From positions 1-56,366 of the IMG/VR virus record IMGVR_UViG_3300037840_000311: DNA of 56,366 nucleotides. One strand, given 5' to 3'. The position numbers were made by a program, and so were the translations under genes. Below are positions 17,542 to 43,670 of this stretch, in pieces; position 1 is the first letter of the stretch, and the number at the start of each line of letters is the position of its first letter. This DNA comes from a virus. Below the pieces are notes generated by a model. The model did no database searches, was not told where the DNA came from, and was given only the letters and a program-made list of their open reading frames with translations.

Positions 17542-17545
17542 ACAA

Positions 17546-21021: not shown

Positions 21022-21696
21022 GTGCGAACAATTGTGAACCTCAGAGCCTACCACCCGGAGCTTGGAGAGCAGGTCTACGGCGTCCATTTGCTGTCAGACG
21101 ACCCGGATACCCAGGTAGCGCAGACCATCCACCGCATGGCTCAGAACGTCCGGGAGGACGCGAAGTCAGCTCCTATCCTTAATGAAGCGGCGGCGATTCA
21201 AGCTTTAGGCTCAGGGGATCCGGTCTCCGATACCTTCTGGCACGTCAAGAATCGGGTAGGCTTCCGGCAGGATGAGCAATTGGCGGCTCCGGTTCTGCCA
21301 TTGCTTCAGCAATACGATCCTGGCGCGAGCGTGGTTGAAGTCCTTGTACGGCCGCGGGACCTGGCGCAGATGCCGAACCCGATGGAAGACTGCGACGGTT
21401 TTGCATCCTACATGCCGGCATTGCTTCGAGCTCAGGGCGTGAAGTGCAACTTCGTCACGGTCGCGGCCGATGGGCGGGATACGTCGCGATTCTCCCACGT
21501 GTACGCAGCTTGCTATCCGAATGGGCAGCGAGTTTCCTTGGATGCTTCGCACGGACCTTACCCGGGATGGGAATGTTTAAGCGCTGGACCTGTCTGGAGA
21601 ATTAAAGAGTGGGATATCGATGCTGTGGACTGGGGTCAGGTTGTTCTGTGGGGACTGTTTTTATTTGCAGCCGGTAAGTTGATGGGGATTTTATGA
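21022..21696 (+). CDS. Transglutaminase-like protein with C-terminal membrane helix
   Basis: The protein has 224 residues from GTG at 21022 (GTG at 21034 is an alternative). The centre has the Cys-His-Asp arrangement of transglutaminase-like folds: MEDCDGFASY (Cys 124), RFSHVYAAC (His 159) and VSLDASHG (Asp 174). These enzymes cross-link or cleave at glutamine or peptide bonds; in viruses they could process or cross-link virion proteins. Residues about 205-222 form a membrane helix (WGQVVLWGLFLFAAGKLMG). It is the first gene of the candidate virion block, and its stop overlaps the ATG of the following corridor ORF (ATGA). Confidence 0.75.
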   Translation: MRTIVNLRAYHPELGEQVYGVHLLSDDPDTQVAQTIHRMAQNVREDAKSAPILNEAAAIQALGSGDPVSDTFWHVKNRVGFRQDEQLAAPVLPLLQQYDPGASVVEVLVRPRDLAQMPNPMEDCDGFASYMPALLRAQGVKCNFVTVAADGRDTSRFSHVYAACYPNGQRVSLDASHGPYPGWECLSAGPVWRIKEWDIDAVDWGQVVLWGLFLFAAGKLMGIL

Positions 21697-21896
21697 AGCG
21701 GCTTTTTGGTTGGGCTCTTCTGTGTTGGCGACTCCATGCAAGCTTGCGCGCGGCGAGAATCGCGATCGGTGAGGCGGGGCGTCAACCAATTAGAATCCGG
21801 CCCGCGGTTCGACTTCCCCGGTTTCAGGGCGCCCACATGCCGGAAGCCTTCATTGAACAGGTGAACGGCGGTTTATCCAAAAGGACCCACGCGTGA
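21693..21896 (+). other. Stop-free corridor ORF between A and B junction elements (67 codons)
   Basis: The ORF begins with an ATG that overlaps the upstream stop (ATGA) and ends in a TGA overlapping the GTG of the next gene (GTGA). Its first part is an A element (MKRLFGWALLCW) and its last part a B element (EAFIEQVNGGLS). No minus-strand gene is evident inside. It may encode a small peptide or only keep ribosomes moving between the flanking genes. Confidence 0.5.
21827..21878 (+). repeat. Gene-junction element, B form
   Basis: GGCGCCCACATGCCGG, AAGCCTTCATTGAACA, then GGTGAACGGCGGTTTATCC, followed by AAAAGGA, the ribosome-binding site of the GTG at 21893. Confidence 0.85.
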
Positions 21897-22249
21897 GAGT
21901 TGATACCCCATTCCCGGATCGTCCACTCATGCCACCCTTAACCGGAGGAATGGGAGACTTCACACTCTCCAACGGTCAAGCGTGCGATCCAGGGCTCATG
22001 GGGCCAGTGCTCTGCCAGGATACCACGGTGAGAATCATCAACGCGATCGCGGCTGGTACAGCAACGGCGGCGCAGATCGCGGCCGGCAACAGTCTGGGAG
22101 TATCCAGCGCGAATTGTCCACTGGGCACGATCTACAATCCCGCAACACTGAGTTGTCAGCCAGGCGTTACAGCGACGGCTTCTGCAAACAGCGGAATGAT
22201 TCTCCTGTTGATAGCCGGGGCGGTTGTGTACTTCATGATGAGGCGATGA
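21893..22249 (+). CDS. Small protein with C-terminal membrane anchor ending MMRR (118 aa)
   Basis: The protein is secretory-looking: a Gly/Pro/Ser/Cys-containing domain of about 95 residues (CDPGLMGPVLCQDTTVRIIN, and CPLGTIYNPATLSC), then one membrane helix (GMILLLIAGAVVYFMM) ending in two arginines. The same ending (helix plus MMRR or MMRK) recurs in the proteins at 23286 and 24634, so these are probably membrane-inserted virion proteins. AAGGA precedes the GTG. No homologue is recognised. Confidence 0.75.
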   Translation: MRVDTPFPDRPLMPPLTGGMGDFTLSNGQACDPGLMGPVLCQDTTVRIINAIAAGTATAAQIAAGNSLGVSSANCPLGTIYNPATLSCQPGVTATASANSGMILLLIAGAVVYFMMRR

Positions 22250-22252
22250 ACG

Positions 22253-22582
22253 ATGGCGAAGTCATGGGACGGTTGGACGCTACGGGCACGGGTTAGAGGA
22301 ATGAGATCAGCACGAGAAACAGCAGGGCGGCATCGCTCATATGGCGATGCGGTGCGGATCACGAAAATGAGTGGCGATTGGTATGGGGTTTATTCCAAAA
22401 CCACTAAGCGATCAAAGCCATATGGTCCGCCGGGATCGAATCCTCGGAAGCGGAAGCGGCACGCGAAACACCGGAAGAATCCTCGGCAACTTCTATTTCG
22501 CACGGCCAAAGCAGCTCGGGCCTACGCAAAGGCTCACGGCGCTAAGAAGTTCTCGGTTCGAAAGTTGAAAAGGGGCAAATGA
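22253..22582 (+). CDS. Basic DNA-binding-type protein with LLFRT-HGAK module (109 aa)
   Basis: The protein is strongly basic, with an RKRKRHAKHRKNPR cluster followed by the module QLLFRTAKAARAYAKAHGAK and KFSVRKLKRGK. The same module, nearly residue for residue, ends the 95-aa protein at 40084 and occurs in the large protein at 29885. Basic clusters next to NPR are typical of nucleic-acid-condensing proteins. A later start (the Met at residue 17 or MSGDWYG) is possible. It probably packages or binds viral DNA. Confidence 0.65.
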   Translation: MAKSWDGWTLRARVRGMRSARETAGRHRSYGDAVRITKMSGDWYGVYSKTTKRSKPYGPPGSNPRKRKRHAKHRKNPRQLLFRTAKAARAYAKAHGAKKFSVRKLKRGK

Positions 22583-23286
22583 CTCCAGCGCAACATAGAG
22601 CGGGTGAAGCCTTCATGCACCGGGGATACTTCGGCATGCAAGGGCTCGGCATCACGTCCCAGCAGATTACCTCGACCGTGGGCGGCTCGCTGATGGCTTC
22701 GGCTGGCGTCGTGGCGCTGATACCAGGCGGCCAACTTCCCGCGGCGATCATCGCGGCAGTGGGAGCGCTTACCAATCTGATCGGCGGATTGTTTAAACCG
22801 GACATTACCAAGATCCAGGCGTCCCAGATCGTAGACCAGATCGAAGCGCAGACGTTGAAACCCATGCGCGTTAGTTGGCAGGCGTTGCCGGCGAATCAGA
22901 AAACCGTGAGCATGCAAGCTCACTACTTGAACGTGTTCGATCAGGCATGGTCCGCGGTCATGCAAGGTTGCTCGAATCCGGCGCTCGGCAGCGCAGGGCA
23001 GAATTGCATCGGTGATCGGCAGCGAGGGGCTTGTCACTACACCCAGACGGGGCAGACTCCGGGAGCTCCACCGAACTGTGGGAACTGGTTCGTTTGGTAT
23101 CGGGACCCGATAGCGAATGACCCGAACGTGATTCCCGATCCTGTAGCGGGAGTTTCAACGGCTCCGGGCTCGGTGACGGGCGCGATCGATTCCACGGTAT
23201 CAAGCGTGTCGCAAGCGCTCGGCGGTATCTCTCCGCTGTGGATTGGTCTCGGGATTATCGTAGCGGCCTTCATGGTGAGCGACTGA
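22579..23286 (+). CDS. Membrane-associated probable virion protein (235 aa)
   Basis: The start overlaps the previous stop. Residues 30-75 are hydrophobic and Gly/Ala-rich (STVGGSLMASAGVVALIPGG, and AAIIAAVGALTNLIGGLF), like a membrane-penetrating or pore-forming segment. The middle is a soluble domain with four cysteines (GCSNPALGSAGQNC, ACHYTQTGQ, PPNCGNW). The C-terminus is a membrane helix (SPLWIGLGIIVAAFMV). Its stop overlaps the next ATG. No family is recognised; two membrane segments suggest a membrane-embedded virion protein. Confidence 0.7.
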   Translation: MTPAQHRAGEAFMHRGYFGMQGLGITSQQITSTVGGSLMASAGVVALIPGGQLPAAIIAAVGALTNLIGGLFKPDITKIQASQIVDQIEAQTLKPMRVSWQALPANQKTVSMQAHYLNVFDQAWSAVMQGCSNPALGSAGQNCIGDRQRGACHYTQTGQTPGAPPNCGNWFVWYRDPIANDPNVIPDPVAGVSTAPGSVTGAIDSTVSSVSQALGGISPLWIGLGIIVAAFMVSD

Positions 23287-24239
23287 TGGAATTGAACCTC
23301 AGACCTCCGGTATACCGATTCCATCCGTTGATGAGACCGCGGCGCGGTTTCGCCGGCATGGGCGCCGATCCGGGCGTCAATGCAACTACGATCTGGACAC
23401 CTTCAGGAGGATGGACGGGCGGCGGTGGAGCGGCGGTGTATCAGGCTCCCAGCGTTCCTCCGCTGCCGGCGTGTACGCAGGATACCCAACCAGGCGGCGC
23501 GGCATTTTCCCAAGCGTGCATCGATGCGTTGCAAAAACGGCAACAGGGGATTTTTCAAGCGAACAACAATGCGAATTTCCAGGTGGACTATACCAACTGC
23601 GTCAACCAAGGCCTCGACCCTTCGGTATGCGCCTCGCGAACCTACGGCCTGACTCCCGCAGGTGGGTACACGTCGGATGCTGGCGCAGGACCGGCCGGGT
23701 CGCAACTGATCCTTGACGCCAACGGTAATCCAGTACCTCCAGCGGGATCGAATCCACCGGCTCCGCATCCTCCAACTCCGGGGAGTGGAACCGTTCTCGC
23801 GTTCACAAACCTGACCTCTGGCGACAATACGAATTTCAAAGTAGGCGACCGCTGGCAAATCAAAATCACCGGCGCGGCGCCGAATGCTCCGGTTACGGTT
23901 TCCGGGGGTATGGCTGGCGGAAATACGTTTGCAAGCCAAGGGATGACTAATCAGGGAACGACCGATTCAGCGGGCAACTTCACGATGAACGGTCAGATGA
24001 CCCAAGGGCAGATCGGGAGTTGGTCGGAGTCCTGGAGCGTGGCGGGGGCTCCTATCGCGTCTTTCACGTTCAACGTTTCGGCGGGATCAACGGGCGGCGG
24101 TCAGTCCACACAGACCTCAACCTCTACAAGCGTCTTCGGCACGCTGCCCGGAGGTTCTGTTTTGATCGGCGGGACGAGCGTTCCTTGGCTTGCGATTGGG
24201 GCTGGTGTGGTGGTTTTGTTTTTGATGATGAGGCGATAA
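23286..24239 (+). CDS. Ig-like surface protein with C-terminal anchor ending MMRR (317 aa)
   Basis: The start is taken at the ATG overlapping the previous stop. Residues 1-35 contain RPRRGFAGMGADPG, a Gly-rich part follows, then a Cys-containing helical segment (CIDALQKRQQGIFQANNN). A Pro-rich hinge (PPAPHPPTPGSG) leads to a beta-sandwich domain (VLAFTNLTSGDNTNFKVGDR to SFTFNVSAG) of Ig-like character, then a Ser/Thr/Gln-rich stalk and a membrane helix ending FLMMRR. The layout suggests a surface-exposed, membrane-anchored virion protein. The TAA overlaps the ATG of the corridor ORF. Confidence 0.7.
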   Translation: MELNLRPPVYRFHPLMRPRRGFAGMGADPGVNATTIWTPSGGWTGGGGAAVYQAPSVPPLPACTQDTQPGGAAFSQACIDALQKRQQGIFQANNNANFQVDYTNCVNQGLDPSVCASRTYGLTPAGGYTSDAGAGPAGSQLILDANGNPVPPAGSNPPAPHPPTPGSGTVLAFTNLTSGDNTNFKVGDRWQIKITGAAPNAPVTVSGGMAGGNTFASQGMTNQGTTDSAGNFTMNGQMTQGQIGSWSESWSVAGAPIASFTFNVSAGSTGGGQSTQTSTSTSVFGTLPGGSVLIGGTSVPWLAIGAGVVVLFLMMRR

Positions 24240-24637
24240 TGAAAGGCTTATTGTTTGGGCTGATCTGTCGGCGTCTGGTCCGTGCTTGCCAGGGCGCGGC
24301 GATGTTTTATGCGGTCTGTGTGTGTTGCACATTCTCCCAAGGGGCATTTTGTTCCAGGGCATCCGCAACGGTGGCAGCCGTCGAAACGAAACCCTGCCAC
24401 GTTTGGACACGTGCGAGGGCAGGGAGTCCCGCCGTAAATTCCCATGACGTGGCAAACGCAATCGCACAAGCCGGACCGACTAGCGGGAGTCGCAAACAAT
24501 TCGCCGATAAAATCGAGCAGTCCCATCGAAACGCGCTTTGTTTGGGTCGTGGCCGTCCTTACCATACCCCCAGCCCTGACGTAAGTCCCTTTACCGCTGG
24601 TTTGGCCGCGACCGAATCAGCTTGGAGTTTAGCATGA
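24239..24637 (+). other. Stop-free corridor ORF over a minus-strand gene (132 codons)
   Basis: The plus frame is open from an ATG overlapping the upstream TAA to a TGA overlapping the next ATG at 24634. The first 63 bases are an A element (MKGLLFGLIC; DNA TTGTTTGGGCTGATCTG). It runs in exact codon register antisense to the minus-strand gene 24248-24565. The final codons (WSLA-stop) are identical to those of the corridor at 39395-40087. Confidence 0.5.
24248..24565 (-). CDS. Cys-rich protein ending PTDQPKQ (105 aa or 93 aa)
   Basis: The core has many Cys/His residues (LCDCVCHVMG, PCPRTCPN, CHRCGCPGTKCPLGEC), enough for two or three zinc sites. The second methionine (MGLLDFIGELF, 24529) is an alternative start. 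The tail ASTDQTPTDQPKQ is encoded by the A element and is nearly shared with the gene at 27739-27933. It is the only reverse gene between two plus-strand virion genes. The function is unknown. Confidence 0.6.
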   Translation of the reverse strand: MVRTATTQTKRVSMGLLDFIGELFATPASRSGLCDCVCHVMGIYGGTPCPRTCPNVAGFRFDGCHRCGCPGTKCPLGECATHTDRIKHRRALASTDQTPTDQPKQ

Positions 24638-24819
24638 ATTTCACAGGCTTAGGCAGTTGTCCAACAGGTCAGACCGATTCGAATGGCGTTTGCATCGCTG
24701 GTAATGTTCCGCCTTGGCCCGTTTTGTGCTTTTCAAATCCTTCAGCCGTTGGCGGGTTTAACTGCGGCTTGCTCTATCTCGGGATTGCCGTGGTTTTGTT
24801 TTTGATGATGAGGAAGTGA
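24634..24819 (+). CDS. 61-aa membrane-anchored protein ending MMRK
   Basis: The ATG at 24634 has GGAG seven bases upstream (TTGGAGTTTAGC, a sequence repeated before the gene at 40084). A short Cys-containing ectodomain (GSCPTGQTDSNGVCIAG, CFSNPS, FNCG) is followed by a membrane helix (LLYLGIAVVLFLMMRK). The final helix is almost identical to that of the protein at 23286 (VVVLFLMMRR), so the two probably share a location. Confidence 0.7.
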   Translation: MNFTGLGSCPTGQTDSNGVCIAGNVPPWPVLCFSNPSAVGGFNCGLLYLGIAVVLFLMMRK

Positions 24820-24989
24820 ACTTGTGGGAATTGCGCGTTTGCGATGTCTGTTTGTTGCTCGATCAGGATTCGACTCCGAAGCCTTGTCTATTTTGCCCAA
24901 GTTGTCAGGCGTGGATTTGTCAGCAGGATCAGGGAGACATGGTGAGACGAGCAAAAGCAATGTTCAAGCGACAGTGGGGTACGGAATGA
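24816..24989 (+). CDS. 57-aa zinc-ribbon protein
   Basis: The GTG at 24816 overlaps the previous stop (GTGA), and its TGA overlaps the ATG of the next corridor. The product (MNLWELRVCDVCLLL and onward) has three Cys pairs or clusters: CDVC, CLFCPSC and a final C-Q-Q. It ends in a basic helix (MVRRAKAMFKRQWG). Coupled overlaps and the Cys pattern support a real small gene of the zinc-ribbon type, possibly DNA- or RNA-binding. Confidence 0.6.
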   Translation: MNLWELRVCDVCLLLDQDSTPKPCLFCPSCQAWICQQDQGDMVRRAKAMFKRQWGTE

Positions 24990-24994
24990 AACGC

Positions 24995-25279
24995 TTATTG
25001 TTTGGGCTCGACAGCGGGCGCAGGCTTGGTGCTTGCGGGCGCGCGGTGAAGGACCACTTCGAGGTTCCCGTATGCATCCGCGAAAAACCCGCTGAGCGTT
25101 TCCTGGCCTTCCTCCGGGAAACAATCTCTCAGGCATTGAGCGTTGAAAAAATAACTCTCCAGAATATCCACGTCGAGAGGCTTGCCTTCGATGGCTCTGG
25201 ATATGATTTGGTGGGCCCGGCTCAGAAGATCAAGGGCTTCTTCGAGTGCATGGACCGCTTTATCAGGCTCAATCGTCAT
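24995..25279 (-). CDS. Helical protein with Pro-rich EPKQ tail (94 aa)
   Basis: The ATG follows GGAGG at short distance. The protein is alpha-helical and acidic (KAVHALEEALDLLSRAHQII and onward), ending in APASTKPAPAVEPKQ. The tail is encoded by the A element on the minus strand and matches the family of tails at other island genes. The sequence looks like a folded small helical domain, so this strand is the likely true gene. The function is unknown. Confidence 0.65.
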   Translation of the reverse strand: MTIEPDKAVHALEEALDLLSRAHQIISRAIEGKPLDVDILESYFFNAQCLRDCFPEEGQETLSGFFADAYGNLEVVLHRAPASTKPAPAVEPKQ

Positions 25280-25283
25280 ACAT

Positions 25284-25337
25284 CCTCCGCGCGCTCACAA
25301 GCCATCATAGCCCAACTGGTGAACGGCGGTTTACCCC
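25284..25337 (+). repeat. Gene-junction element, B form
   Basis: CCTCCGCGCGCTCACAAGCC, then CAACTGGTGAACGGCGGTTT and ACCCC. It starts just upstream of the minus-strand ATG (25279), where its CCTCC is that gene's ribosome-binding site, and ends 23 bases before the plus-strand ATG at 25360. One element therefore serves two divergent genes. Confidence 0.85.
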
Positions 25338-25359
25338 AAGAAACGAAAAGGAGCTTCGC

Positions 25360-26052
25360 ATGAGCCTAGGAGTCGTACGTTACTGCACACCGGAAGGCGG
25401 TTCAGGTTTCATTCCGAACTCGTCGCTTCCTTGGCTCTCGTCCTTTAACATTACTCAACAGGCTCCGGTTTACGATCAGTATCCAGGATGGCTGAGGGAT
25501 GCTCTTCCGGGAAGCTACACCAACTACTCGCGCTTCGGACCTCCCTACTCGATGGATGGGGGAGTGCTTCCGCCTTACTACGTTGATGAAACCGGGCAAC
25601 CCGTCCCAGTTCCGACGAGCTGCGGGATGGGCGCGGTCGATCCGGGACAATTTGAAGCGCAGTACGGCCATCCGGAACCGGACGCATCGACCTGCGTACA
25701 AATCCAGTGCGGGGCGATTTCCCAAACCCAAGCCGGGATGCAACTGATTGTCGATTGCGCCAACGCCGGGTACTCCGGGGTCCGTTCGTGTTTCGATCCG
25801 GCATGCTCTCCCTGGAGGTCTCGAATCCCAGGATGTTCGTTAGCGCCCAACGCTCCGTCGCCCGTGCTCTTGCGTTCCGATGTTGTGGCGCCCATGCCGT
25901 CGATTACCACCACAGCGCGAGGCGGGTGTCAGCAGCAATCGCGGCCGGCGTGTCCTTCGCCTCTGGCTAGTTGGCTTCAATCGAATCCGCTGCTTGCTTT
26001 GGGATTAGCGATTGCAGCCGGGGCCATTTTATTTGGAGGTGGCAAGAAGTGA
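25360..26052 (+). CDS. Pro/Cys-rich protein with C-terminal membrane anchor (230 aa)
   Basis: AAAAGGAG precedes the ATG. The ectodomain is rich in Pro, Tyr, Gly and Cys (YDQYPGWLRDALPGSYTNYS, CVQIQCGAISQTQAGMQ, CFDPACSPW), likely disulfide-bonded outside the cytoplasm. The C-terminus is a membrane helix (LLALGLAIAAGAILF) ending GGGKK. It overlaps the GTG of the next gene. It is a probable membrane-bound virion component; no homologue is recognised. Confidence 0.7.
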   Translation: MSLGVVRYCTPEGGSGFIPNSSLPWLSSFNITQQAPVYDQYPGWLRDALPGSYTNYSRFGPPYSMDGGVLPPYYVDETGQPVPVPTSCGMGAVDPGQFEAQYGHPEPDASTCVQIQCGAISQTQAGMQLIVDCANAGYSGVRSCFDPACSPWRSRIPGCSLAPNAPSPVLLRSDVVAPMPSITTTARGGCQQQSRPACPSPLASWLQSNPLLALGLAIAAGAILFGGGKK

Positions 26053-26774
26053 ACTCCAAAGACCTCATCAAATACGGACTGCTCGCGTTGGGAGCGTACC
26101 TGATTTGGAAGTACGTTCAAGATCACGGCGGCATTTCGGGATTATTCGGAACCACCGCGGCAGCGGGAACTACTGGTTTGAATGCAAACGGTACAGCCGT
26201 GCTGAATCAGGTTCTTGGGCAACTCCATATCAGTCCATCCGTAGCCGCCTCGCTGAACCTGACATCAAGCCAGATCGCCTTATTAAATTCAACGACCATA
26301 CCTACAGGGCAAGTTCCGGGTCCTGGGTTTCTTTCAGAGTTGGCATTCACGCCAGCACAAATGTCGATACTCAGCGGCGCTCCCTATATTGGGCCTGTCG
26401 GCGGAACGCTACCCGTGGGCAGCACGATTCCTTCAACGCCAGTGTCCACGCCGCCTCCGTTCACCACTCCGACTCCCGCGCCAATCGTACAGCCAGTTAC
26501 GCTTGCCCCCACCGTCTCCCAAAAGATGCTCGCAGCGGCAGGAACAAACAGCCTGAACATGGATCAATGGTGCTTCTATTACTCGGCGGCCACGGGGAAC
26601 GGTTGCCCGGTCGATCCGGGCTCGATCGATCCGAGCGTTTACGCCGGCGCGGGAATCGTGGACCGTACCACACCGACCGATGTCGGAACATGGATCGCAA
26701 TCATGCAAAACCAAGCGCCTCAGTTGGGCTTGATGGGACTTGGGGCGCGTTTCACTCCGGCTTGGCTCATGTGA
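26049..26774 (+). CDS. Protein with N-terminal membrane helix and Pro/Thr-rich stalk (241 aa)
   Basis: The GTG at 26049 overlaps the previous stop. Residues 6-22 form a membrane helix (LIKYGLLALGAYLIWKYV). A Gly/Ala/Thr-rich region, a Pro/Thr stalk (STPPPFTTPTPAPIVQP) and a C-terminal domain with one Cys pair (QWCFYYSAATGNGCPVDPG) follow. Unlike its neighbours the anchor is at the N-terminus, so topology would be reversed (type II). No homologue is recognised. Confidence 0.65.
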   Translation: MNSKDLIKYGLLALGAYLIWKYVQDHGGISGLFGTTAAAGTTGLNANGTAVLNQVLGQLHISPSVAASLNLTSSQIALLNSTTIPTGQVPGPGFLSELAFTPAQMSILSGAPYIGPVGGTLPVGSTIPSTPVSTPPPFTTPTPAPIVQPVTLAPTVSQKMLAAAGTNSLNMDQWCFYYSAATGNGCPVDPGSIDPSVYAGAGIVDRTTPTDVGTWIAIMQNQAPQLGLMGLGARFTPAWLM

Positions 26775-26781
26775 GGATGCG

Positions 26782-27396
26782 ATGGAACTAGCTCTCAGAC
26801 GCGCTTACGGATACGCTTTCGGATCTCCGCTACTTCATTCCCACTACGGAATGCGAGGATTGGGAGATACTGTCAGCGATCTGATAGCCGCTGGCGTGAA
26901 CCCCATTGACGCGCAAGCCTACGCGCCTCAGATCAACATGGACCCGTCACCAATTGGAACCACGCTGGCCCCACCGGAGTTAAGCCTTTATGCGCAATTG
27001 GTCCAGCAGGGAGTGAATCCGATTGACGCGCAGGTATACGACCCGACAGGAGCGGCTGCGGCGGGCTACATTCCAGGATCGGCAACCTCGCCGTCAACCT
27101 CGACCAGCACTGCGGGAGCGATTACGGCGGCGTCACAAATCGCGGCGGCACTGAGTCGCGCGCTGGCGCCTACTCCTGGAATCTTCGGAGGAACGCCAAC
27201 CAGTTGCCCAGCGGGGTACGTTTACGGAGCTCCGGGGGCTTCAGTCGCCATCGCGCCTGGTGTAGCGACCGTGGGCACGGGGAAATGCTTACCGAGCACG
27301 GTACCAGCGGGGATCATTCCGGGAGTCTCGAATACGACTCTTGGCATTGCGGTGTTTGCCGTGATTGTTCTGATGATGATGGGGAAAAAGCGGTGA
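26782..27396 (+). CDS. Repeat-containing membrane-anchored protein (204 aa)
   Basis: Two copies of a short motif, LIAAGVNPIDAQAYAP and LVQQGVNPIDAQVYDP (about residues 34-49 and 73-88), precede a Ser/Thr-rich region and an Ala-rich helix. A CPAGYVYGAPG segment and a second Cys follow. The C-terminal membrane helix (TTLGIAVFAVIVLMMM) ends GKKR. It belongs to the same set of small anchored proteins as its neighbours. The stop overlaps the GTG of the composite element. Confidence 0.7.
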   Translation: MELALRRAYGYAFGSPLLHSHYGMRGLGDTVSDLIAAGVNPIDAQAYAPQINMDPSPIGTTLAPPELSLYAQLVQQGVNPIDAQVYDPTGAAAAGYIPGSATSPSTSTSTAGAITAASQIAAALSRALAPTPGIFGGTPTSCPAGYVYGAPGASVAIAPGVATVGTGKCLPSTVPAGIIPGVSNTTLGIAVFAVIVLMMMGKKR

Positions 27397-27515
27397 AGGG
27401 TTTTGGGCTCGACAATTCGGAGCGGGTTCGGAATGCTCAGGGCGCGGCGGCTGTCTCCGCGCTTCCACGGGCTGAAAACCTTCGACCAATGGTGAACGGC
27501 GGTTTATCCCTATGA
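27393..27515 (+). repeat. Complete A-B composite junction element with a 40-codon ORF
   Basis: The A half (27396-27450, TTTTGGGCTCGACAATTCGG to GGCGCGGCGG) and the B half (27454-27510, TCTCCGCGCTTCC to TGAACGGCGGTTTATCCC) lie back to back and are imperfect inverted repeats. The unit is also an open frame: its GTG overlaps the upstream stop and its TGA overlaps the ATG at 27512. The encoded peptide ends ENLRPMVNGGLSL. This is the shortest form of a junction, with nothing inserted between A and B. Confidence 0.75.
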
Positions 27516-27730
27516 GCAAAACCGTACAAAAACAAGGCCGTCTCGATCATCTCGCCAAAGGAGTGCTTAACAAGTTGCTCAAGGAAATAGGCAACCCGGA
27601 AATGCGGTTCACGTGCAAACTTCTGGAGGAAGAAATAGACGAGACCCTGGAAGAGAATTTAGGACCGGGTACCCAAGTTCACAAAGTAGGGCAGAGAATT
27701 CTCCGGGCGATCAATAGGGGAGACCGCTGA
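27512..27730 (+). CDS. Small helical protein (72 aa)
   Basis: The ATG overlaps the composite ORF's stop and has no Shine-Dalgarno of its own, so translation must be coupled. The protein is helical and charged (LDHLAKGVLNKLLKEIGNPE, TCKLLEEEIDETLEENLGPG). It could be a regulator or adaptor. The stop overlaps the next ATG (TGATG). No family is recognised. Confidence 0.65.
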   Translation: MSKTVQKQGRLDHLAKGVLNKLLKEIGNPEMRFTCKLLEEEIDETLEENLGPGTQVHKVGQRILRAINRGDR

Positions 27731-27966
27731 TGGTTTCTTTATTGTTTGGGCTCATCTGTCGGTTGCGAGTCCGTGCTTGCCATTGCGCGGCGGCTGAGTT
27801 CTTCGCCGATCAGTTCTCTCAGGCGTCGTCCTCCATCCTGTTTTGCAAAGTGAATGAGAATAGTTGCCTGATCGCGGCTAAAACCCTGACTCATAAGTTC
27901 ACGCACTTCAGGGCTAAGCCGCTCTTCTTCCATGAATTCAGTCTAACTCACCGGGGGATTGCCTGA
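27730..27966 (+). other. Stop-free corridor ORF over a minus-strand gene (78 codons)
   Basis: The frame is open from an ATG overlapping the upstream TGA to a TGA overlapping the ATG at 27966. The first 65 bases are an A element (MVSLLFGLIC). It lies in codon register with the antisense gene 27739-27933. There is no B element on the right; GGGGG serves as ribosome-binding site for the next gene. Confidence 0.5.
27739..27933 (-). CDS. Small helical protein ending PTDEPKQ (64 aa)
   Basis: The product is a compact helical protein (MEEERLSPEVRELMSQGFSR, ATILIHFAKQDGGRRLRELI) with the recurrent tail ASTDSQPTDEPKQ from the A element. TAGACT lies six bases before the ATG, the same spacing as other promoters here, although no clear -35 accompanies it. 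The function is unknown. Confidence 0.6.
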   Translation of the reverse strand: MEEERLSPEVRELMSQGFSRDQATILIHFAKQDGGRRLRELIGEELSRRAMASTDSQPTDEPKQ

Positions 27967-28514
27967 TGCAACTGGCGCTGCGAGGGATGGGCGCGATAAG
28001 CGCGAACGGAATACCGTACAACGATACGGGAGATGGAATCTCGCTTGACAACTTCCAGTCCGGATGCTGTCCGTGGGAAATCACAACGCCCTCGTGTTCC
28101 GCATTTATTCAAGCAAATCAATCCCGGTTCGCCGGATACTCGCCTTGTTCATCGGCAGCCCAAGAAGCGCTGACGTTTCCAAATCTGCCAGGGCCAACCG
28201 GCGCAGCGGTTACGCCTCCGGTTTTGAATCCGGCTCTGTTGAACTCGCAAGATCCTAACACTACGATCAATCAGATTCTTGTAGCAAGCGCGGCAGCGGA
28301 TACGGCGCAGAATCGAGCGGCGGCAGCGGGCATTCTCGCCAACCTCTGCGCGACTCAGGCGGCAACCTGCCAATCCAGTTTCTTCAGCGCATTCGTTTCG
28401 CCAAGTCCCGATTGCACCGGGTGTGTGTTCGACTTCAGTAAGACCGCTTCAATGTTCTTGGTTGCCGGAATCGTTCTGCTCGGCCTTGCGCTGACAAAGG
28501 GGATTGTCCGATGA
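27966..28514 (+). CDS. Cys-rich protein with C-terminal membrane helix (182 aa)
   Basis: The ectodomain has several cysteines (SGCCPWEITTPSCSAF, YSPCSSAAQ, LCATQAATCQSS, DCTGC), probably paired in the periplasm or virion. A long Ala/Asn-rich helix lies in the middle. The C-terminal membrane helix (MFLVAGIVLLGLALTKGIV) ends in Arg. It is a further member of the anchored virion-type set. The stop overlaps the next ATG. Confidence 0.7.
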   Translation: MQLALRGMGAISANGIPYNDTGDGISLDNFQSGCCPWEITTPSCSAFIQANQSRFAGYSPCSSAAQEALTFPNLPGPTGAAVTPPVLNPALLNSQDPNTTINQILVASAAADTAQNRAAAAGILANLCATQAATCQSSFFSAFVSPSPDCTGCVFDFSKTASMFLVAGIVLLGLALTKGIVR

Positions 28515-28687
28515 GAACCGGCATGGAGCCATTTGTCGCATTGCTTGAAGCCGTCCGCTACGCCTTCGAGCAAATCCGAATCGAGCGCCGCGCCTGGCAA
28601 GCGTACCAGAGAAATCAGTCTCCGCGCCCTGTCTATTCCGAACATCCTGGACAGTTGAGCCCAAAAACAAACGAGGTATTTTCATGA
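28511..28687 (+). CDS. 58-aa helical protein with junction-encoded tail
   Basis: The ATG overlaps the previous stop, and the TGA overlaps the ATG at 28684. The first 40 residues are an amphipathic helix (EPFVALLEAVRYAFEQIRIE). The tail QLSPKTNEVFS is encoded by a plus-oriented junction element (28619-28676). Overlaps on both ends support expression. The function is unknown. Confidence 0.55.
   Translation: MRTGMEPFVALLEAVRYAFEQIRIERRAWQAYQRNQSPRPVYSEHPGQLSPKTNEVFS
28619..28676 (+). repeat. Gene-junction element, variant with GAGCCCAAAAAC tail
   Basis: CTCCGCGCCCTGTCTATTCC, GAACATCCTGGACAGTT, then GAGCCCAAAAACAAACGAGG. It is the exact reverse complement type of the A halves at island left borders, here in the direction of transcription, overlapping the 3' end of one gene and providing ACGAGG before the next ATG. 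Confidence 0.8.
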
Positions 28688-29124
28688 ACGCACTTCAAGA
28701 CTTTGTACCCGCCAGCTTTCCTCTACCCTGGAACGTCATTACCATGGCAGGACTCCAGGACTTCGTACCGGCAGACTTTCCCTTACCTCAGAATCCGATT
28801 CGCTTTGTTCCAGCGGCTAACGGCTCACTTCCGAAAGCTCCACCCATGCCCATGGCAAATATCGGAGCGAAAAACGGAAACGCCTACATGTCCGCAATCC
28901 TGAACAGCGGGTGCGGAGGCTGCGGATGCGGAGAAGGGATGGGAGCGCTCTGCCCAACCTGTTCGGCGAGCATGGCGACCGATACGTTTATCCCGCAGGC
29001 GAGCTTGCCCACTTTCCTGCAGGGAGATGCGTACATGGCTGGTTTTCCCACGGTCTACCTGGCTGGGGCCGTGGCGTTGACACTGGCGTTTATGTTTATG
29101 GGATCGAAAAGAGGGAGGCGGTAA
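28684..29124 (+). CDS. Membrane-anchored protein with duplicated DFVPxxFPLPQ motif (146 aa)
   Basis: The N-terminus has two near-identical repeats, LQDFVPASFPLPWNVI (4-19) and LQDFVPADFPLPQNPI (24-39), followed by RFVPAANGS. A Cys-rich loop (SGCGGCGCGEGMGALCPTC) precedes a membrane helix (VYLAGAVALTLAFMFMG) ending SKRGRR. The DFV..FPLPQ motif appears once more in the large basic protein at 34025, so it may be a docking motif for a shared virion partner. Confidence 0.7.
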   Translation: MNALQDFVPASFPLPWNVITMAGLQDFVPADFPLPQNPIRFVPAANGSLPKAPPMPMANIGAKNGNAYMSAILNSGCGGCGCGEGMGALCPTCSASMATDTFIPQASLPTFLQGDAYMAGFPTVYLAGAVALTLAFMFMGSKRGRR

Positions 29125-29125
29125 C

Positions 29126-29284
29126 GTGCTGCTGCTCATTATTCTTTTGATCCTGATTTTCGGCGGCGGCTTCGGTTACATCGGCCACGTCCACTCCTGG
29201 CCGGGAGGCGGGCCGGGTATCGGACTCGGAACGGTTGTGGTGATTCTGCTGATTATTTGGTTGCTCGGAGGATTTCGAGGTTAA
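29126..29284 (+). CDS. DUF3309-like small membrane protein (52 aa)
   Basis: The GTG at 29126 lies just after the previous stop. Two hydrophobic helices (MLLLIILLILIFGGGFG, and GTVVVILLIIWLLGG) flank a short loop HVHSWPGGGPG. This matches the layout of DUF3309 proteins (about 50 residues, two helices, with a W-x-x-G-P loop), which are widespread in bacteria with unknown function. Here it may be a virion-membrane or holin-like peptide. Confidence 0.65.
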   Translation: MLLLIILLILIFGGGFGYIGHVHSWPGGGPGIGLGTVVVILLIIWLLGGFRG

Positions 29285-29291
29285 AAACGTT

Positions 29292-29462
29292 ATGTCCACT
29301 CAATCCATTTTCTGTATCGTTCTCGCGTGCTTGTGCATCCTGCTTGGGCTTTTCGATTACTTCCGAACCCCACCGGCCAGCCCGCCAGGACGCGAGCCTT
29401 TATTCTGGCCATTGCTCGGTCTTCTCGTTATCGAGACTTGCAGGATGTTCGGGAGCCATTAA
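29292..29462 (+). CDS. Small membrane protein (56 aa)
   Basis: The ATG at 29292 follows the previous stop by seven bases. A first helix (SIFCIVLACLCILLGLFDYF) and a second, shorter one (PLFWPLLGLLVIETC) are separated by a Pro-rich loop (RTPPASPPGREP). It belongs to the run of small membrane proteins here; no homologue is recognised. Confidence 0.55.
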   Translation: MSTQSIFCIVLACLCILLGLFDYFRTPPASPPGREPLFWPLLGLLVIETCRMFGSH

Positions 29463-29465
29463 CCG

Positions 29466-29525
29466 ATGAGGTTTTGGGCTCAACAGCGCGGGCAGGTTCG
29501 GGCTACCGGGAGCGCGGCGGCATAA
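29466..29525 (+). repeat. Gene-junction element, A form, as a 19-codon ORF
   Basis: GAGGTTTTGGGCTCAACAGC, GCGGGCAGGTTCGGGCTACC, GGGAGCGCGGCGGC. The element is open from ATG (MRFWAQQRGQVRATGSAAA) to a TAA directly before the ATG at 29526, for which its GGGAG is the ribosome-binding site. Confidence 0.75.
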
Positions 29526-29885
29526 ATGGAAGTCGATCTCTATCAACGGCGACGGATGTACGGCCTGGGAGTGGTGGACCCGGTTACGGGCATCGACTCG
29601 TCCGTCACAACCCCTCCGGCTTCGACGGGAGCACTATCTTCATTCGGGATAGACCTCTCTTCCATGTCCCCGACTACGCTTCTAGTAGCGGGCGCTTTTG
29701 GATTGTGGATGCTTTCGTCTCTGTTCAGCGGCGGAAAGAAAGTCTACGGAAAAGTCGCACGGCCCATTAAGAAACGTCGCAAGAAAAAGCGTGCTCTCGA
29801 GGATGCGGAAGAGCGATACGAAAGCGAGCGGCGCCGCATTGAAAGAGGCGGATCGTCGCGCCGGGGCGGGGGAGGGTTCTTCTGA
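29526..29885 (+). CDS. Membrane protein with basic cytoplasmic-type tail (119 aa)
   Basis: The first 45 residues are a polar domain (YQRRRMYGLGVVDPVTGIDS), then one membrane helix (TTLLVAGAFGLWMLSSLF). The C-terminal 50 residues are very basic (KKVYGKVARPIKKRRKKKRA, and SERRRIERGGSSRRGGGGFF). One membrane helix plus a nucleic-acid-binding tail suits a protein tethering DNA to a membrane. The stop overlaps the next ATG (TGATG). Confidence 0.65.
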   Translation: MEVDLYQRRRMYGLGVVDPVTGIDSSVTTPPASTGALSSFGIDLSSMSPTTLLVAGAFGLWMLSSLFSGGKKVYGKVARPIKKRRKKKRALEDAEERYESERRRIERGGSSRRGGGGFF

Positions 29886-32026
29886 TGCCTGCCTCAGCCA
29901 GTCGCAAGCGCGGGCGTAACGCATTCGGAGATATCTTCCGCTCACGGGTAACGTATCACCGGGATGTCGCCGGAGAGCGCCGGGAATTGAAGCGCCAGGC
30001 GTTTGAAGAGCGGAAAGAACGGCTTCGGCTCAGGAAGCTGAAAGCTACGGAACGGGCGCAATCCCTGAGGGAGGCCAAGTTAGGAGAGCAAGAAAGAAAA
30101 CGTCAAGCCGGGCGCGATGCGGCCTCCATCATTTCCCGAAAGCAGGAACTGGCGGCAGAAGGGAAAATCCGCGCAGCGGAGCGCAAAATTGCCAAGGCGG
30201 AACATCAGATAGAGACGGCGGCTCAAAGGGCCAGCCGTGGTGCAAGCCGGGCCAGTGGGGGTCTCTCCGAGTCGGAATTCGACCGGATCAAAGCCCACAT
30301 GGAGAGCGAGATTGCCAAACAGGAAGACATGAAGCGGCGAGCGCTCGCTAGCGTGGGTAATCCGTCGTGGGGATTTGGAATTTACAAGGGCAGAGGTTTT
30401 GGAACCGAGCAACTGGCGCACTTCAAATCCAGGGAAGCGGCGGAAACTTATGCGCGGTCGCATGGCTTGACGGGGTATCGAATCCAGCGGGCCTTTGCGA
30501 AAGGCGCAAACCCGGCCAGTCGCCACCGCGCGCCCGCAAGCCGGAAACCCTCGACCACTGGTGAACGGCGGTCTACCCGAAATTGCGCCGTGGAATTCTC
30601 AACCGAATACCACCTAGGTTACAACCTAGGCCAAGCCGACCGGCAGAATGCCAGCCTCCGAAAGACGCCAGGTGAACTCCATGCGACCTTCGCCGCGAAC
30701 TTCGGGACCGTTCCATCCGCCAGTTGGGAAAGCTTCGAGCAAGCGTATCAAGCAGGGTACGGCGGGCAGATGGGCGCAGCGGCTCCGAATCCAAAGCATG
30801 AGACCCCGTTCCAGTACAAGGGAGTGACCATCACGCCGGTACCGCCGACCTTCACACGCTACGACGTGGCGCTACCGACCGGCATTATTCGACTCACGAG
30901 CCTACAGGACGCAAAGGATTGGGTTACGCGCAGTCAAGAACCGGCGCGGAATCCCGGTAGCCCGAAACTGCGAGCGCTTTTGAGACGAATGAGCACGGAC
31001 GAACAAGCGCAACTGCTCCAAGCGATTGACCGCTTCTACTATGCCGCAATCAGCGAAGGATTCAAACCGAGCGAGGCGCAGTCCTTCGCGGAAAAGCGAG
31101 CGATTCCAGAGGCGGAAAAGATTTTAAGGGGCCGATTCGCCAATCCCGAAGCATGGACCACGATTTACAAAACGAAAGCAGAAGCAAAAGCAGTATGGTA
31201 CGACAGCGCACCGGGCCGGAATGATCGAGCGACATTTCAGAAAGTTCGCGGCGGCTGGGTTATCAAAGCGGGGAATCCGCGCTCTGGCGGAATGAACGCG
31301 ACCGAGAAACGGCACGATGCGGAAGTCCGAAAACTGATCGCCAAACGATTTGGCGAAGGCGAGGACGCGACCAAGGTAGCGGCCCGCGTGTGGCGCAGTT
31401 ACGGTTATCTGACCGACGTGAAAGACGGCATCCTGATTGTTCAGTTGAACGCCGGAAGGGAAAGTTTCGCACCGGGCCAGCGCAACCCCGATGACGGCTC
31501 AGAAGAATACGCCCAAGCGAAACGCATAGCAGAACTCTTCCACGGTCACCCCGTCAAAGAAGAAATCACGGTAACCGAACAGATCGAATCGCATGATTGG
31601 CTGTGGAGAATCGGCCCCTTGGTGAAACTGAAAATCCGAACGCTGACCAAGCGAAACGCTACCCTGCCCTTCGGTCAGGACGAAACGAGCATGGTTCATC
31701 TGTTCTGTAGCCCGGACGGAAGGCAGTTCTATTTGCGCGGCGGCGACCAGGAGCTCGACATCGAAGCCCTCGGCATGGGACCGAAAACAGAATGGTTTCG
31801 AGATCAAATGCTGATCGGGGAAGCCAAGGAAATCACGTACCGGGACAAAAAGAAGTTTCACAAGTTCAAGCTGACCGACTACTTCCACAAGCTCGGGGAA
31901 GTCACGAAGAAAAAGCCAATGCTGGCCTATGACGCGCTCGCGCACAAGATGAGCATTTTGGGCGGCCAGTACAAAGTGGAAACCGAAGACCTGGTGGACG
32001 GGATGAGCCCCGGCATCGTGAACTGA
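29885..32026 (+). CDS. Large modular basic protein, apparently fused across a junction element (713 aa)
   Basis: Residues 1-150 are a highly charged coiled coil (GERRELKRQAFEERKERLRL and onward). Residues about 155-205 are a module like that of the proteins at 22253 and 40084 (FKSREAAETYARSHGLTGYR). Residues about 213-232 are encoded by a B junction element. Then come several domains separated by NP-containing linkers (ARNPGSP, FANPEAW, KAGNPRSG, QRNPDDG) and a final domain ending EDLVDGMSPGIVN. It looks like two or more formerly separate genes. It is probably a DNA-associated virion protein. Confidence 0.75.
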   Translation: MPASASRKRGRNAFGDIFRSRVTYHRDVAGERRELKRQAFEERKERLRLRKLKATERAQSLREAKLGEQERKRQAGRDAASIISRKQELAAEGKIRAAERKIAKAEHQIETAAQRASRGASRASGGLSESEFDRIKAHMESEIAKQEDMKRRALASVGNPSWGFGIYKGRGFGTEQLAHFKSREAAETYARSHGLTGYRIQRAFAKGANPASRHRAPASRKPSTTGERRSTRNCAVEFSTEYHLGYNLGQADRQNASLRKTPGELHATFAANFGTVPSASWESFEQAYQAGYGGQMGAAAPNPKHETPFQYKGVTITPVPPTFTRYDVALPTGIIRLTSLQDAKDWVTRSQEPARNPGSPKLRALLRRMSTDEQAQLLQAIDRFYYAAISEGFKPSEAQSFAEKRAIPEAEKILRGRFANPEAWTTIYKTKAEAKAVWYDSAPGRNDRATFQKVRGGWVIKAGNPRSGGMNATEKRHDAEVRKLIAKRFGEGEDATKVAARVWRSYGYLTDVKDGILIVQLNAGRESFAPGQRNPDDGSEEYAQAKRIAELFHGHPVKEEITVTEQIESHDWLWRIGPLVKLKIRTLTKRNATLPFGQDETSMVHLFCSPDGRQFYLRGGDQELDIEALGMGPKTEWFRDQMLIGEAKEITYRDKKKFHKFKLTDYFHKLGEVTKKKPMLAYDALAHKMSILGGQYKVETEDLVDGMSPGIVN
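30522..30578 (+). repeat. Gene-junction element inside a coding sequence
   Basis: GCCACCGCGCGCCCGCAAGC, CGGAAACCCTCGACCAC, then TGGTGAACGGCGGTCTACCC. It is a full B copy read in frame within the 713-residue protein, at the border between a module that elsewhere ends a protein and an unrelated domain. Confidence 0.85.
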
Positions 32027-34024: not shown

Positions 34025-34915
34025 ATGATTACTCCCCGAGTCACAAAGGCCCTGAACCCCCAGCGGAGAAAGTTGACCATCAAGCAGATCCGCGCGGGAT
34101 TCGGCGGCAAGCGGCGCCTAGCCTCTCTTAAGGCAAAGCGTCACACTCACAAAAGACCCAAAGCCAAAGCGTCGAATCCCAAGAAGCACCGCCGACGCAC
34201 GGCTAAGGCCAAGAACGCGACCAGAGTCGTGTACCGCACGAAATACAAGACGCGGACCAAGAAGGTCTACGTCAAATCGAAACCCCGGCGCAAGGCAAAC
34301 GCCAAGCATCGGAGAAGCAGTAATCCCGGACAGTACTTATTGACCATGAGCCCTGCCGGCTTCGGAAACCCACACAAGAAAAGGAGAAAGACCAGTATGG
34401 CGAAACATCGCAGAAAAGCATCCGCCAGGGGCCGCTCCGGGAAGCGAAATCCGACCCGGCGTGCCTATCGGCGGAAAAGTAATCACCGTCCGCGCTCGAG
34501 AAATCCGTTCGGTGAAGGCACAAGCGTCCTGATGAAAAAGGGCTTTGGCGTCTTCCTGGGATTCTCGGCAGCGAAGAAAGTACCACCCATGCTCGGCGCG
34601 AGCATGAATTCCAGCCCCGGCATGAGCCTGCTCTCGACCGCAATCACGGCGGGAGTGCTGGCTTGGGCCGCGAAAAAGTTCATCCCCGGCCCTATTGCCG
34701 AGGGTGTTCTTTGGGGAGGCGTGGGAGGCGTGATCAACGTCGCCTGGAACGCCTGGGCGCCGCCCTCAATCGCGGGCTATGCCGGCGTTGGGGATTTTGT
34801 CAATGGGAGTTTCCCGCTACCCCAAGGACCTGTACGGTTCCCGATGGTAGCGGCTCCGAGCACCACACCGACCGGCTCACCCGTCAACCTGAGCGCGTTC
34901 GGAAGGGCCTGGTAA
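34025..34915 (+). CDS. Very basic DNA-binding protein with hydrophobic C-terminal domain (296 aa)
   Basis: Residues 1-165 are extremely rich in Lys/Arg (KRRLASLKAKRHTHKRPKAK, and TRVVYRTKYKTRTKKVYVK), with NP-containing spacers, as in protamine-like condensing proteins. Residues about 175-260 are hydrophobic and Gly/Ala-rich with two or three possible membrane helices (LLSTAITAGVLAWAAKKF, and EGVLWGGVGGVINVAWNAW). Near the end, GDFVNGSFPLPQGPVRF repeats the motif of the protein at 28684. It could join the viral genome to an internal membrane or capsid. AAGGAGG precedes the ATG at 34025. Confidence 0.7.
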   Translation: MITPRVTKALNPQRRKLTIKQIRAGFGGKRRLASLKAKRHTHKRPKAKASNPKKHRRRTAKAKNATRVVYRTKYKTRTKKVYVKSKPRRKANAKHRRSSNPGQYLLTMSPAGFGNPHKKRRKTSMAKHRRKASARGRSGKRNPTRRAYRRKSNHRPRSRNPFGEGTSVLMKKGFGVFLGFSAAKKVPPMLGASMNSSPGMSLLSTAITAGVLAWAAKKFIPGPIAEGVLWGGVGGVINVAWNAWAPPSIAGYAGVGDFVNGSFPLPQGPVRFPMVAAPSTTPTGSPVNLSAFGRAW

Positions 34916-34995: not shown

Positions 34996-35652
34996 ATGCC
35001 AGCAGCAGTAGTCAATCGAACCATCGACCAGGCGAATCGCGCCGGAGCGTATCAACCCGCGAGCGGGTATTCGCAGCAACAAAACATGATCATGGAGGCG
35101 TTTCGCGCCGACGAGTACATCAAGAACCAGATGGATGTCCAAGCGGAGCCGATCTATGACACCAACACCCAGGTAGCGGGAGACATCATCCAGCAGGGTC
35201 AACCCTCCGGCGTCTTCTTCACCAACATCAGCGGCAAGGCTCTCAATCTGACCAACATGAAACAGCCGAACCAACTGATGAACCCCGAGGCCTTGGCGAT
35301 CTTTTGTTATCGCTACTACCTCGATCCGCGCAACGAAGTGCTCGACGCGGAAAACGTCATGGCCGACTTCGCCCTTCGCTTCGTGATGGGGCAGAAGCCG
35401 TACCAGACCATCCCGCTGTGGATGATTCCCCAGGGCGGCGGCCTCGATCTCCAGGGCTGCTGCTCAGACTGCGTTGTCCACAACGGCCGGCCCACGAAGG
35501 AAGCCATCCGGCCCATCGCCATCACGCTCGTTCTGGAGCAAGGCGTGTGGTTTGAAGGGGAACTCTTCGGAGGCCCCTACACCATCGATTCAACAGGTGG
35601 ATTCATTCACTCGCTGAATCTCGATGGATTGCACGCCCGAGGCATCCAGTAG
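34996..35652 (+). CDS. Candidate major structural protein (218 aa)
   Basis: The protein is soluble, without signal or membrane helix. An N-terminal helical part (MIMEAFRADEYIKNQMDVQA) is followed by beta-rich sequence (SGVFFTNISGKALNLTNMKQ, AITLVLEQGVWFEGELFGG). It has one Cys pair (GCCSDC). It is followed by a strong stem-loop and preceded by GAAAG, and lies at the centre of the structural block, so it may be abundant; a capsid role is inferred from position and composition only. Confidence 0.6.
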   Translation: MPAAVVNRTIDQANRAGAYQPASGYSQQQNMIMEAFRADEYIKNQMDVQAEPIYDTNTQVAGDIIQQGQPSGVFFTNISGKALNLTNMKQPNQLMNPEALAIFCYRYYLDPRNEVLDAENVMADFALRFVMGQKPYQTIPLWMIPQGGGLDLQGCCSDCVVHNGRPTKEAIRPIAITLVLEQGVWFEGELFGGPYTIDSTGGFIHSLNLDGLHARGIQ

Positions 35653-36509: not shown

Positions 36510-36540
36510 CCGGCCCCAGCGCTCCCAGTAGTACGAATCG

Positions 36541-36592: not shown

Positions 36593-37033
36593 ATGAATAA
36601 TTACCCCTTCCAAGACTACGCGGGAGACAACTCCTTCGACTACCCCTTCGACATCGTTCTAACGCCAAACCAGAACGCACCGAACGAAGGGAAGCGCACC
36701 GATACGGACTCGGACTTCCTGCTCTTCGGCTTGACGCTGAACAATTTCTCATCGATCCTGTTCACAATCCAATTCAAGGACGCCAACGGAAACTATTTCT
36801 CGAGCGCTCCAATCTTCGCATCGAATTACAACGGACAAGGAAGCGCGCCCTACATGTTCCCCGGGACGCCTAGAATCTTTCCGCCTGGCTCTCAGATCGG
36901 TATCGGCCTTTTGGAACTCTCCGGGTTTACGAACACGATCGAGATGACGTTCCGGGGTATCAAACGATTTGTGAAGCCTCAGCCTATCTGTGGGCAGGAC
37001 GCTCTTACGAATCGACTTTTAGTGAGGGCGTGA
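36593..37033 (+). CDS. Small beta-rich structural protein, F-x-G-x-K-R-F family (146 aa)
   Basis: CAAGGAG precedes the ATG. The protein is beta-rich: FDIVLTPNQ, a strand with FLLFGLTLNNFSSILFTIQF, then FPPGSQIGIGLLELSG and the closing strand TIEMTFRGIKRF. The same closing pattern (hydrophobic strand, F-x-G, K-R-F) ends the proteins at 37158 and the first half of 38502. These look like paralogous beta-sandwich virion proteins, perhaps capsomer or spike subunits. It has no signal peptide or membrane helix. Confidence 0.68.
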   Translation: MNNYPFQDYAGDNSFDYPFDIVLTPNQNAPNEGKRTDTDSDFLLFGLTLNNFSSILFTIQFKDANGNYFSSAPIFASNYNGQGSAPYMFPGTPRIFPPGSQIGIGLLELSGFTNTIEMTFRGIKRFVKPQPICGQDALTNRLLVRA

Positions 37034-43530: not shown

Positions 43531-43538
43531 TGGCTTCC

Positions 43539-43660: not shown

Positions 43661-43670
43661 GCCTCAAAAT

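Follow-up and report, generated by a model that had tools for sequence, protein, structure and literature searches.

A probable internal-membrane module of small anchored proteins sharing a G-[LM]-G tag in an undescribed lineage of virus genomes

A packaging ATPase has long been regarded as a hallmark of icosahedral membrane-containing double-stranded DNA (dsDNA) viruses. SSIP-1 is an isolated icosahedral phage with an internal membrane, and its architecture has been described (PMC6356626, PMC6260650); it is a 100 nm, T=49 phage with a 44 kb circular dsDNA genome (PMC6260650). For PM2, a model was proposed in which the genome is enclosed while capsid and membrane form (PMC6356626, PMC6260650). 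The role of the ATPase in circular-genome members such as PM2 has been called unclear, and a packaging ATPase is reported absent in FLiP and the Odin group (PMC6260650). P23-77 has one single-barrel and one double-barrel capsid protein (PMC4958249). Here we describe a run of small membrane-protein genes at positions 21893-29885 of IMG/VR virus record IMGVR_UViG_3300037840_000311, whose full 56,366 nucleotides are called the window. The run is probably the membrane-protein module of a tailless dsDNA phage with an internal membrane, belonging to an undescribed lineage, and its products would be virion proteins.

The initial annotation of this DNA described about ten small proteins with single terminal membrane anchors, most of them followed by basic residues. 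The starts and tails agree with that description for 21893 (MMRR), 23286 (MMRR), 24634 (MMRK), 25360 (GGKK), 26782 (GKKR) and 28684 (SKRGRR), each with one hydrophobic C-terminal helix; 27966 has the start and the helix as described, and its tail reads GIVR. Helix calls were made with Kyte-Doolittle windows, not with a trained topology predictor, and these windows also bore out the further helices at 22579, 29126, 29292 and 29526. A hydrophobic N-terminal stretch and a C-terminal helix without a basic tail are found in 22579. The N-terminal anchor of 26049 is under the threshold, clear by eye (LIKYGLLALGAYLIWKYV) and conserved. There are two helices in 29126 and one or two in 29292, while 29526 combines a single internal helix and a long basic tail. 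The ectodomains had been called Cys-, Pro- or Ig-like; a high Cys content holds for protein E (10 and 11 Cys in two genomes) and protein I (8 and 12), and the Ig-like character found no confirmation, as no Pfam family scored above the cut-off. The cluster and the adjacent enzyme gene are as follows.

21022..21696, + strand: transglutaminase-like cysteine enzyme with a C-terminal helix; motif DCDGF...SHVY...LDASHG; homologue of SSIP-1 gp34
21893..22249, + strand: protein A, C-anchored, tail MMRR; GMG tag at 21947-21955; the start may be 21929
22253..22582, + strand: small basic protein with NP repeats, encoded between A and B; positional counterpart L003:1823-2080 with a similar C-terminal repeat
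22579..23286, + strand: protein B, lineage core; GLG tag at 22642-22650; 49% identity to L003
23286..24239, + strand: protein C, C-anchored, tail MMRR; GMG tag at 23355-23363; 56% identity to L003; present in G002, G017 and G019
24634..24819, + strand: protein D, 61 aa, C-anchored, tail MMRK; GLG tag at 24646-24654; no counterpart in the first relative (L003)
25360..26052, + strand: protein E, Cys-rich, C-anchored, tail GGKK; conserved internal CGMG at 25624-25632
26049..26774, + strand: protein F, reversed layout with N-terminal anchor and C-terminal tag LMGLG at 26736-26744; same layout in G005, G015 and G019
26782..27396, + strand: protein G, C-anchored, tail GKKR; MRGLG tag at 26857-26865; 34% identity to L003
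27512..27730, + strand: protein H, small, soluble, conserved, within the cluster; 61% identity to L003
27966..28514, + strand: protein I, Cys-rich, C-anchored; LRGMG tag at 27984-27992
28684..29124, + strand: protein J, C-anchored, tail SKRGRR; repeated DFVPAxFPLPxNPI module, common to 34025
29126..29284, + strand: protein K, two helices; positional equivalent L003:8584-8793
29292..29462, + strand: small membrane protein; near-identical in G002, conserved in 3300050133
29526..29885, + strand: protein L, one helix, long basic C-tail; MYGLG tag at 29562-29570; counterpart L003:9690-10001

Eight proteins of the run end in a single hydrophobic helix, usually with basic residues after it. Outside the run, a C-terminal anchor was found in 2 of 69 window gene calls, one of which is the adjacent 21022. 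Most cluster genes have orthologues in the same order in IMGVR_3300021559_000001 and 3300050133_000100, and protein B occurs in nine of ten lineage records, being absent only from the 23-kb fragment G003. Among 47 C-anchored lineage proteins, 38 have K, R or H within the last five residues. Small single-pass membrane proteins are present as a set in both window and relatives, and they would be located in the virion. As no signal peptide is obvious on the C-anchored proteins, tail anchoring with a cytosolic large domain is suggested. Some E. coli tail-anchored proteins likewise end in RR.

The relatives form a diverse IMG/VR lineage. The first of them, G001 (56,029 bp), was found via the 713-aa protein at 29885; it is ∼50-60% identical to the window and collinear with it across much of its length. 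Further diverse relatives were reached through a lytic transglycosylase search. Profile searches confirmed as members G002 (53.7 kb), G003 (23 kb), G004 (41.8 kb), G005 (45.0 kb), G007 (86-kb record, 40 kb read), G015 (44.1 kb), G017 (29 kb) and G019 (38.3 kb), of which G017 and G019 are nearly identical to each other. In the longer records the core order is transglutaminase-like protein, B, variable anchored proteins, NP-repeat protein, 34025, 34996, and single and tandem jelly-roll proteins, and the lytic transglycosylase also belongs to the syntenic core. After profile iteration, the 34996, 34025 and jelly-roll families were present in every member, fragments included. The corresponding window genes downstream of the cluster are listed here.

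29885..32026, + strand: 713-aa basic NP-repeat protein; C-terminal domain conserved across the lineage
34025..34915, + strand: membrane protein with Arg-rich NP-repeat N-terminus, hydrophobic middle and then a G[LMV]GD tag; candidate DNA-to-membrane linker; all lineage records
34996..35652, + strand: putative capsid protein, 218 aa, always adjoining 34025; all lineage records
36593..37033, + strand: single predicted jelly-roll protein; AlphaFold pLDDT 73; family in all lineage records
37158..37622, + strand: second single domain of the 36593 family, by pairwise/profile comparison
38502..39398, + strand: tandem duplication of the 36593-family domain, putative large capsid protein, by pairwise/profile comparison
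49571..49978, + strand: lytic transglycosylase, likely virion-associated; 79% identity to G001; PHROG match confined to the lytic domain
55734..56240, + strand: lipoprotein with lipobox LAAC; its L003 counterpart sits within the membrane cluster

The window is an entire virus record with both ends identical over 127 nt. Five relatives are terminally redundant, with end repeats of 127, 123, 97 and 127 nt, and of 29 nt in G001. Since several of these lengths resemble assembly k-mers, the lineage genomes are probably circular or circularly permuted. No description of the lineage was found in the literature searched, which mostly comprised sources other than subscription journals, and the structural proteins tried were without match in PHROGs or 50,697 phage records. 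No host copies were found in scans of genome contigs. DNA pattern searches with conserved peptides returned only the known relative or nothing, and sigma-70 promoters showed no enrichment. The lineage most likely comprises previously undescribed tailless bacterial viruses with genomes of 38-56 kb.

A short tag, G[LM]G, often in the form RG(hydrophobic)G, is shared by most of the anchored proteins. It was found in all ten anchored window proteins tested, and in eight of them no more than 35 residues separate it from the membrane-distal end, which is N-terminal when the anchor is C-terminal and C-terminal in 26049. In G001 the tag is at the membrane-distal end in 9 of 10 anchored proteins. None of 20,000 shuffles reached the number seen in the window or in G001, a figure that overstates the case for both because motif and window sizes were picked after viewing the sequences. 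When six more relatives were included, G[LMVFI]G was present in the first 60 residues of 33 of 47 C-anchored proteins (shuffle mean 9.0) and RG[LMVFI]G in 23 of 47 (shuffle mean 0.36), and neither count was reached in 5000 shuffles; these 47 proteins were hand-picked, kin are non-independent and some starts are uncertain, so that the effect size outweighs the exact number. As controls, 69 other window genes gave eight with G[LMVFI]G and two with RG[LMVFI]G.

The tag lies between enzyme domain and anchored part in the fused enzyme-anchor proteins of G004, G005, G007, G015 and G019 and in SSIP-1 gp34. In the window the two halves are split into genes 21022 and 21893; the latter starts with the tag, and its product, protein A, corresponds by position to the membrane half of the fused forms in relatives. 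This position at a domain junction favours a cleavage site, a role to which we give somewhat less than an even chance. The extended module GxGDFVPAxFPLPxNPI, common to 28684, 34025 and their counterparts (L003:8059-8133 matches window 34025), favours a docking peptide, which is a plausible role as well, held more tentatively. A papain-like cysteine protease is encoded at 52793-53539; it was set aside as the tag-cleaving enzyme, being present in G002 and not in G001.

The link to a described phage comes from the enzyme. 21022 matches Pfam Transglut_core below the cut-off (E 1.4e-3), and its Cys-His-Asp catalytic motif is conserved across the lineage. The transglutaminase-family profile matches one SSIP-1 protein, gp34 (E 3e-14), which ranks first of ∼68 SSIP-1 proteins by hhalign (97%) and is annotated in GenBank as a structural protein. 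Both gp34 and the fused lineage forms have the layout enzyme domain, RGMG, linker, anchor. This profile found nothing among solved structures. Transglutaminase matches in GacPV1 and MT839222 look like generic transglutaminase cores without the tag and were rejected.

No packaging ATPase is detectable in the lineage. Walker A candidates among window ORFs of at least 120 aa were DnaB, a helicase-methylase and chance matches, and no real-looking candidate was found in G015 or G019, whereas the same expression recovers PRD1 P9, PM2 P9, P23-77 gp15 and SSIP-1 gp40 as positive controls. The complete Pfam list for the 68 ORFs of the terminally redundant G015 and G019 contains no terminase, portal, capsid or packaging-ATPase family, and no Pfam family of HK97 capsid, portal or terminase was found among 30 window ORFs scanned. 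Among the PHROG matches listed for the G015 and G019 ORFs there is one weak 'terminase small subunit'; as the families listed are 25 of 67, this is weaker evidence than the Pfam list. As a terminase proxy, phrog_2 was discarded after matching 13 of 14 control genomes, archaea included. Neither profiles nor the Walker scan gave a capsid or FtsK-HerA-type ATPase homologue of Tectiviridae, Corticoviridae or Matsushitaviridae. Packaging might also be done by a motor whose P-loop is degenerate, or by an ATPase taken from the host. Since FLiP and the Odin group also lack the ATPase, its absence here is unusual but not unprecedented.

These searches bear on whether the window belongs to a tailed phage with head and tail genes so divergent that they escape recognition, its anchored proteins acting in the host membrane in lysis, superinfection exclusion or injection. 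The IMG/VR context, the large fibre-like proteins at 43305-49094 and a lytic transglycosylase resembling podovirus internal and tape-measure lytic domains would fit such a phage. However, neither terminase nor portal was found by Pfam or Walker scans, which included several terminally redundant genomes. The PHROG 'tape measure' match was rejected as tail evidence, since it spans the lytic domain only. With the homology to gp34 of an icosahedral membrane phage and an unusually large syntenic set of anchored proteins, a tailed phage is unlikely.

The 36593 beta family occurs as single domains and tandem pairs, as found by profiles and a pairwise test. An AlphaFold model from ten sequences is a beta sandwich (pLDDT 73, pTM 0.65), for which Foldseek gave weak matches to Ena fibre subunits, the Pam1 capsid, STMV, SPV1 and PRD1 P3 (E 6e-4 to 1e-2), with the fibre subunit Ena2A on top. 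That match, together with circular or terminally redundant genomes and exported proteins without a recognised capsid, could suggest that this is not a virus but a plasmid-like element that makes a pilus-like or cell-surface structure. This we regard as very improbable, since no conjugation or partition module appeared in the families searched, 72,556 plasmids gave no match to the putative capsid protein of G005, a lytic transglycosylase is conserved and gp34 bears the annotation of a phage structural protein. The 34996 and jelly-roll profiles found nothing among solved structures.

Beyond a viral membrane as such, the initial annotation had left open an internal membrane, an outer one or a filamentous particle. 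We retain the internal membrane, in view of the gp34 homology, the synteny with predicted jelly-roll proteins and the lack of tailed-phage morphogenesis genes. The other two forms found no support: the putative window capsid proteins (34996 and the jelly-roll family) have no Sec signal peptide, and filamentous-phage genes (Zot-like ATPase, small signal-bearing major coat) were not found, the window P-loop candidates being only DnaB and an SNF2 helicase in a genome of 56 kb. In a related scheme, the proteins would form a coat on the DNA inside a membrane, and the particle would bud or be extruded through the envelope, as filamentous or pleomorphic viruses do. It would agree with the missing packaging ATPase, with the conservation of a lipoprotein, with basic tails that fit an N-out topology and with a Sec-signal protein at 43671 that has signal-bearing counterparts in four relatives. 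Against these stand the signal-less jelly-roll family and 34996, a virion-type lytic transglycosylase, the missing filamentous morphogenesis genes and the gp34 tie to an icosahedral phage, and we consider budding or extrusion improbable. The 43671-45077 product is a fibre-like protein whose Sec signal peptide (MKTLLLALLILPLAYAQ) is unusual for an icosahedral-phage virion protein; its signal-bearing counterparts are in G002, G004, G007 and G015, and G019 has a similar signal-bearing ORF. The second 34996-family copy of G001 (L006:3839-4528) has an N-terminus resembling a Tat signal, RRGFLKLFG. Also in the structural region, 32232-33155 encodes a DUF3494 ice-binding protein with a putative Ig domain, conserved in G001 and G002.

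Several points weigh against an internal-membrane phage. By the positive-inside rule, basic C-tails place the large domains outside the cytosol, opposite to the topology proposed below. Transglutaminase folds are widespread, and jelly-roll folds occur in tail fibres and spikes too; the weak Foldseek matches fit a jelly-roll and do not identify a capsid. The 34996 model from three sequences was poor (pLDDT 43) and was not used, so that calling it the main capsid protein is a guess, drawn from how conserved it is and where it lies. Lineage families other than gp34's have no significant match in SSIP-1, and for this reason the lineage was not filed as SSIP-1-like. Against the SSIP-1 capsid proteins gp45-gp48, the best pair was 34996-gp45, first in rank but with 2% hhalign probability, and the jelly-roll family gave none. 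Unlike the lineage, SSIP-1 has an ATPase, gp40, for which neither a phmmer match nor a Walker A candidate was found in the lineage.

Nevertheless, the lineage most likely works like SSIP-1, and on analogy the best reading is assembly by an SSIP-1/PM2-like route, for which we infer membrane, topology, tag function, capsid architecture and capsid assembly as follows. The anchored proteins would insert post-translationally via the C-terminal helix (N-terminal in 26049) into the host cytoplasmic membrane, their larger domains staying cytosolic. The Arg-rich 34025 and the basic NP-repeat protein 29885 would then tether the probably circular genome to a membrane patch. Over this patch, 34996 and the jelly-roll proteins 36593, 37158 and 38502 would assemble, touching the membrane-distal ends, and membrane and genome would be enclosed together, as proposed for PM2, without a packaging motor. 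The tag would mark where a terminus, either removable or used for docking, joins the part held in the membrane, with the transglutaminase-like neighbour as a candidate processing or cross-linking enzyme. We offer with some doubt a fuller form of this scheme, motor-free enclosure of 38-56 kb dsDNA, in which an Arg-rich membrane protein binds DNA and about ten membrane proteins share an RG(hydrophobic)G tag recognised by one partner (the capsid or the anchored transglutaminase-like enzyme); the entire membrane of the virion would then be put in register or matured through one tag.

What is strange here is the tag common to these proteins and the lack of a detectable motor; both of these and the transglutaminase-like gp34 homologue go beyond the initial annotation. 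A lineage apparently without ATPase, with probably circular genomes of 38-56 kb, makes motor-free enclosure directly testable, and the tag is a concrete handle, as one mutable motif in most membrane proteins of a virion.

Two repeats were noted in the window. A repeated leader ending in CTGGTGAACGGCGGTTTATCCC stands directly before many start codons, membrane and jelly-roll genes among them, and one copy lies inside 29885-32026. Its copies are at 7251-7307, 17489-17545, 21856-21881, 25314-25339, 27454-27510, 30523-30579, 36512-36568, 37094-37150, 38433-38489, 40495-40551, 42720-42776 and 47018-47074. The leader core pattern is also in G001 and G002, and not in more distant relatives. The second repeat, with GTTTGGGCTCAACTGT, is found at plus-strand gene ends (21692, 24237, 24984, 27728, 35756, 37029, 39394 and 42295) and in places overlaps small minus-strand ORFs ending in PTDEPKQ-like sequence. 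Other genes encode a GroES-like (Cpn10) protein (17546-18274, minus strand), a glycosyltransferase (40570-41736) and a conserved protein that is glycosyltransferase-like by eye, without a Pfam match (51484-52647).

Compared with known phages, the lineage resembles SSIP-1 in its circular dsDNA of comparable size (43.8 kb in SSIP-1) and in several C-anchored proteins, and SSIP-1 gp36, gp37, gp52 and gp53 have an N-terminal G[LM]G as the lineage proteins do. Unlike in the lineage, tag enrichment in SSIP-1 is weak (reached by 129 of 5000 shuffles), and there is no significant similarity in the capsid, B, F and 34025 families. PM2 (Corticovirus) has circular dsDNA, and its virion proteins P3 and P8 are small, C-anchored and basic-tailed; it differs in its 10 kb genome, double jelly-roll P2 and P9 ATPase, and no lineage profile matches it significantly. 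FLiP (Finnlakeviridae) and, by description only, the Odin group have jelly-roll capsids, as predicted for the lineage, and are reported without a packaging ATPase, but FLiP is a 9 kb single-stranded DNA virus without a profile match. The Thermus phage P23-77 (Matsushitaviridae) differs in its 17 kb genome, its packaging ATPase and the lack of a significant profile match, yet it is the closest analogy to the single and tandem domains of the lineage, with small membrane proteins encoded alongside. Small C-tail-anchored proteins with basic ends, as in the run described here, are found also in PM2, FLiP and SSIP-1.

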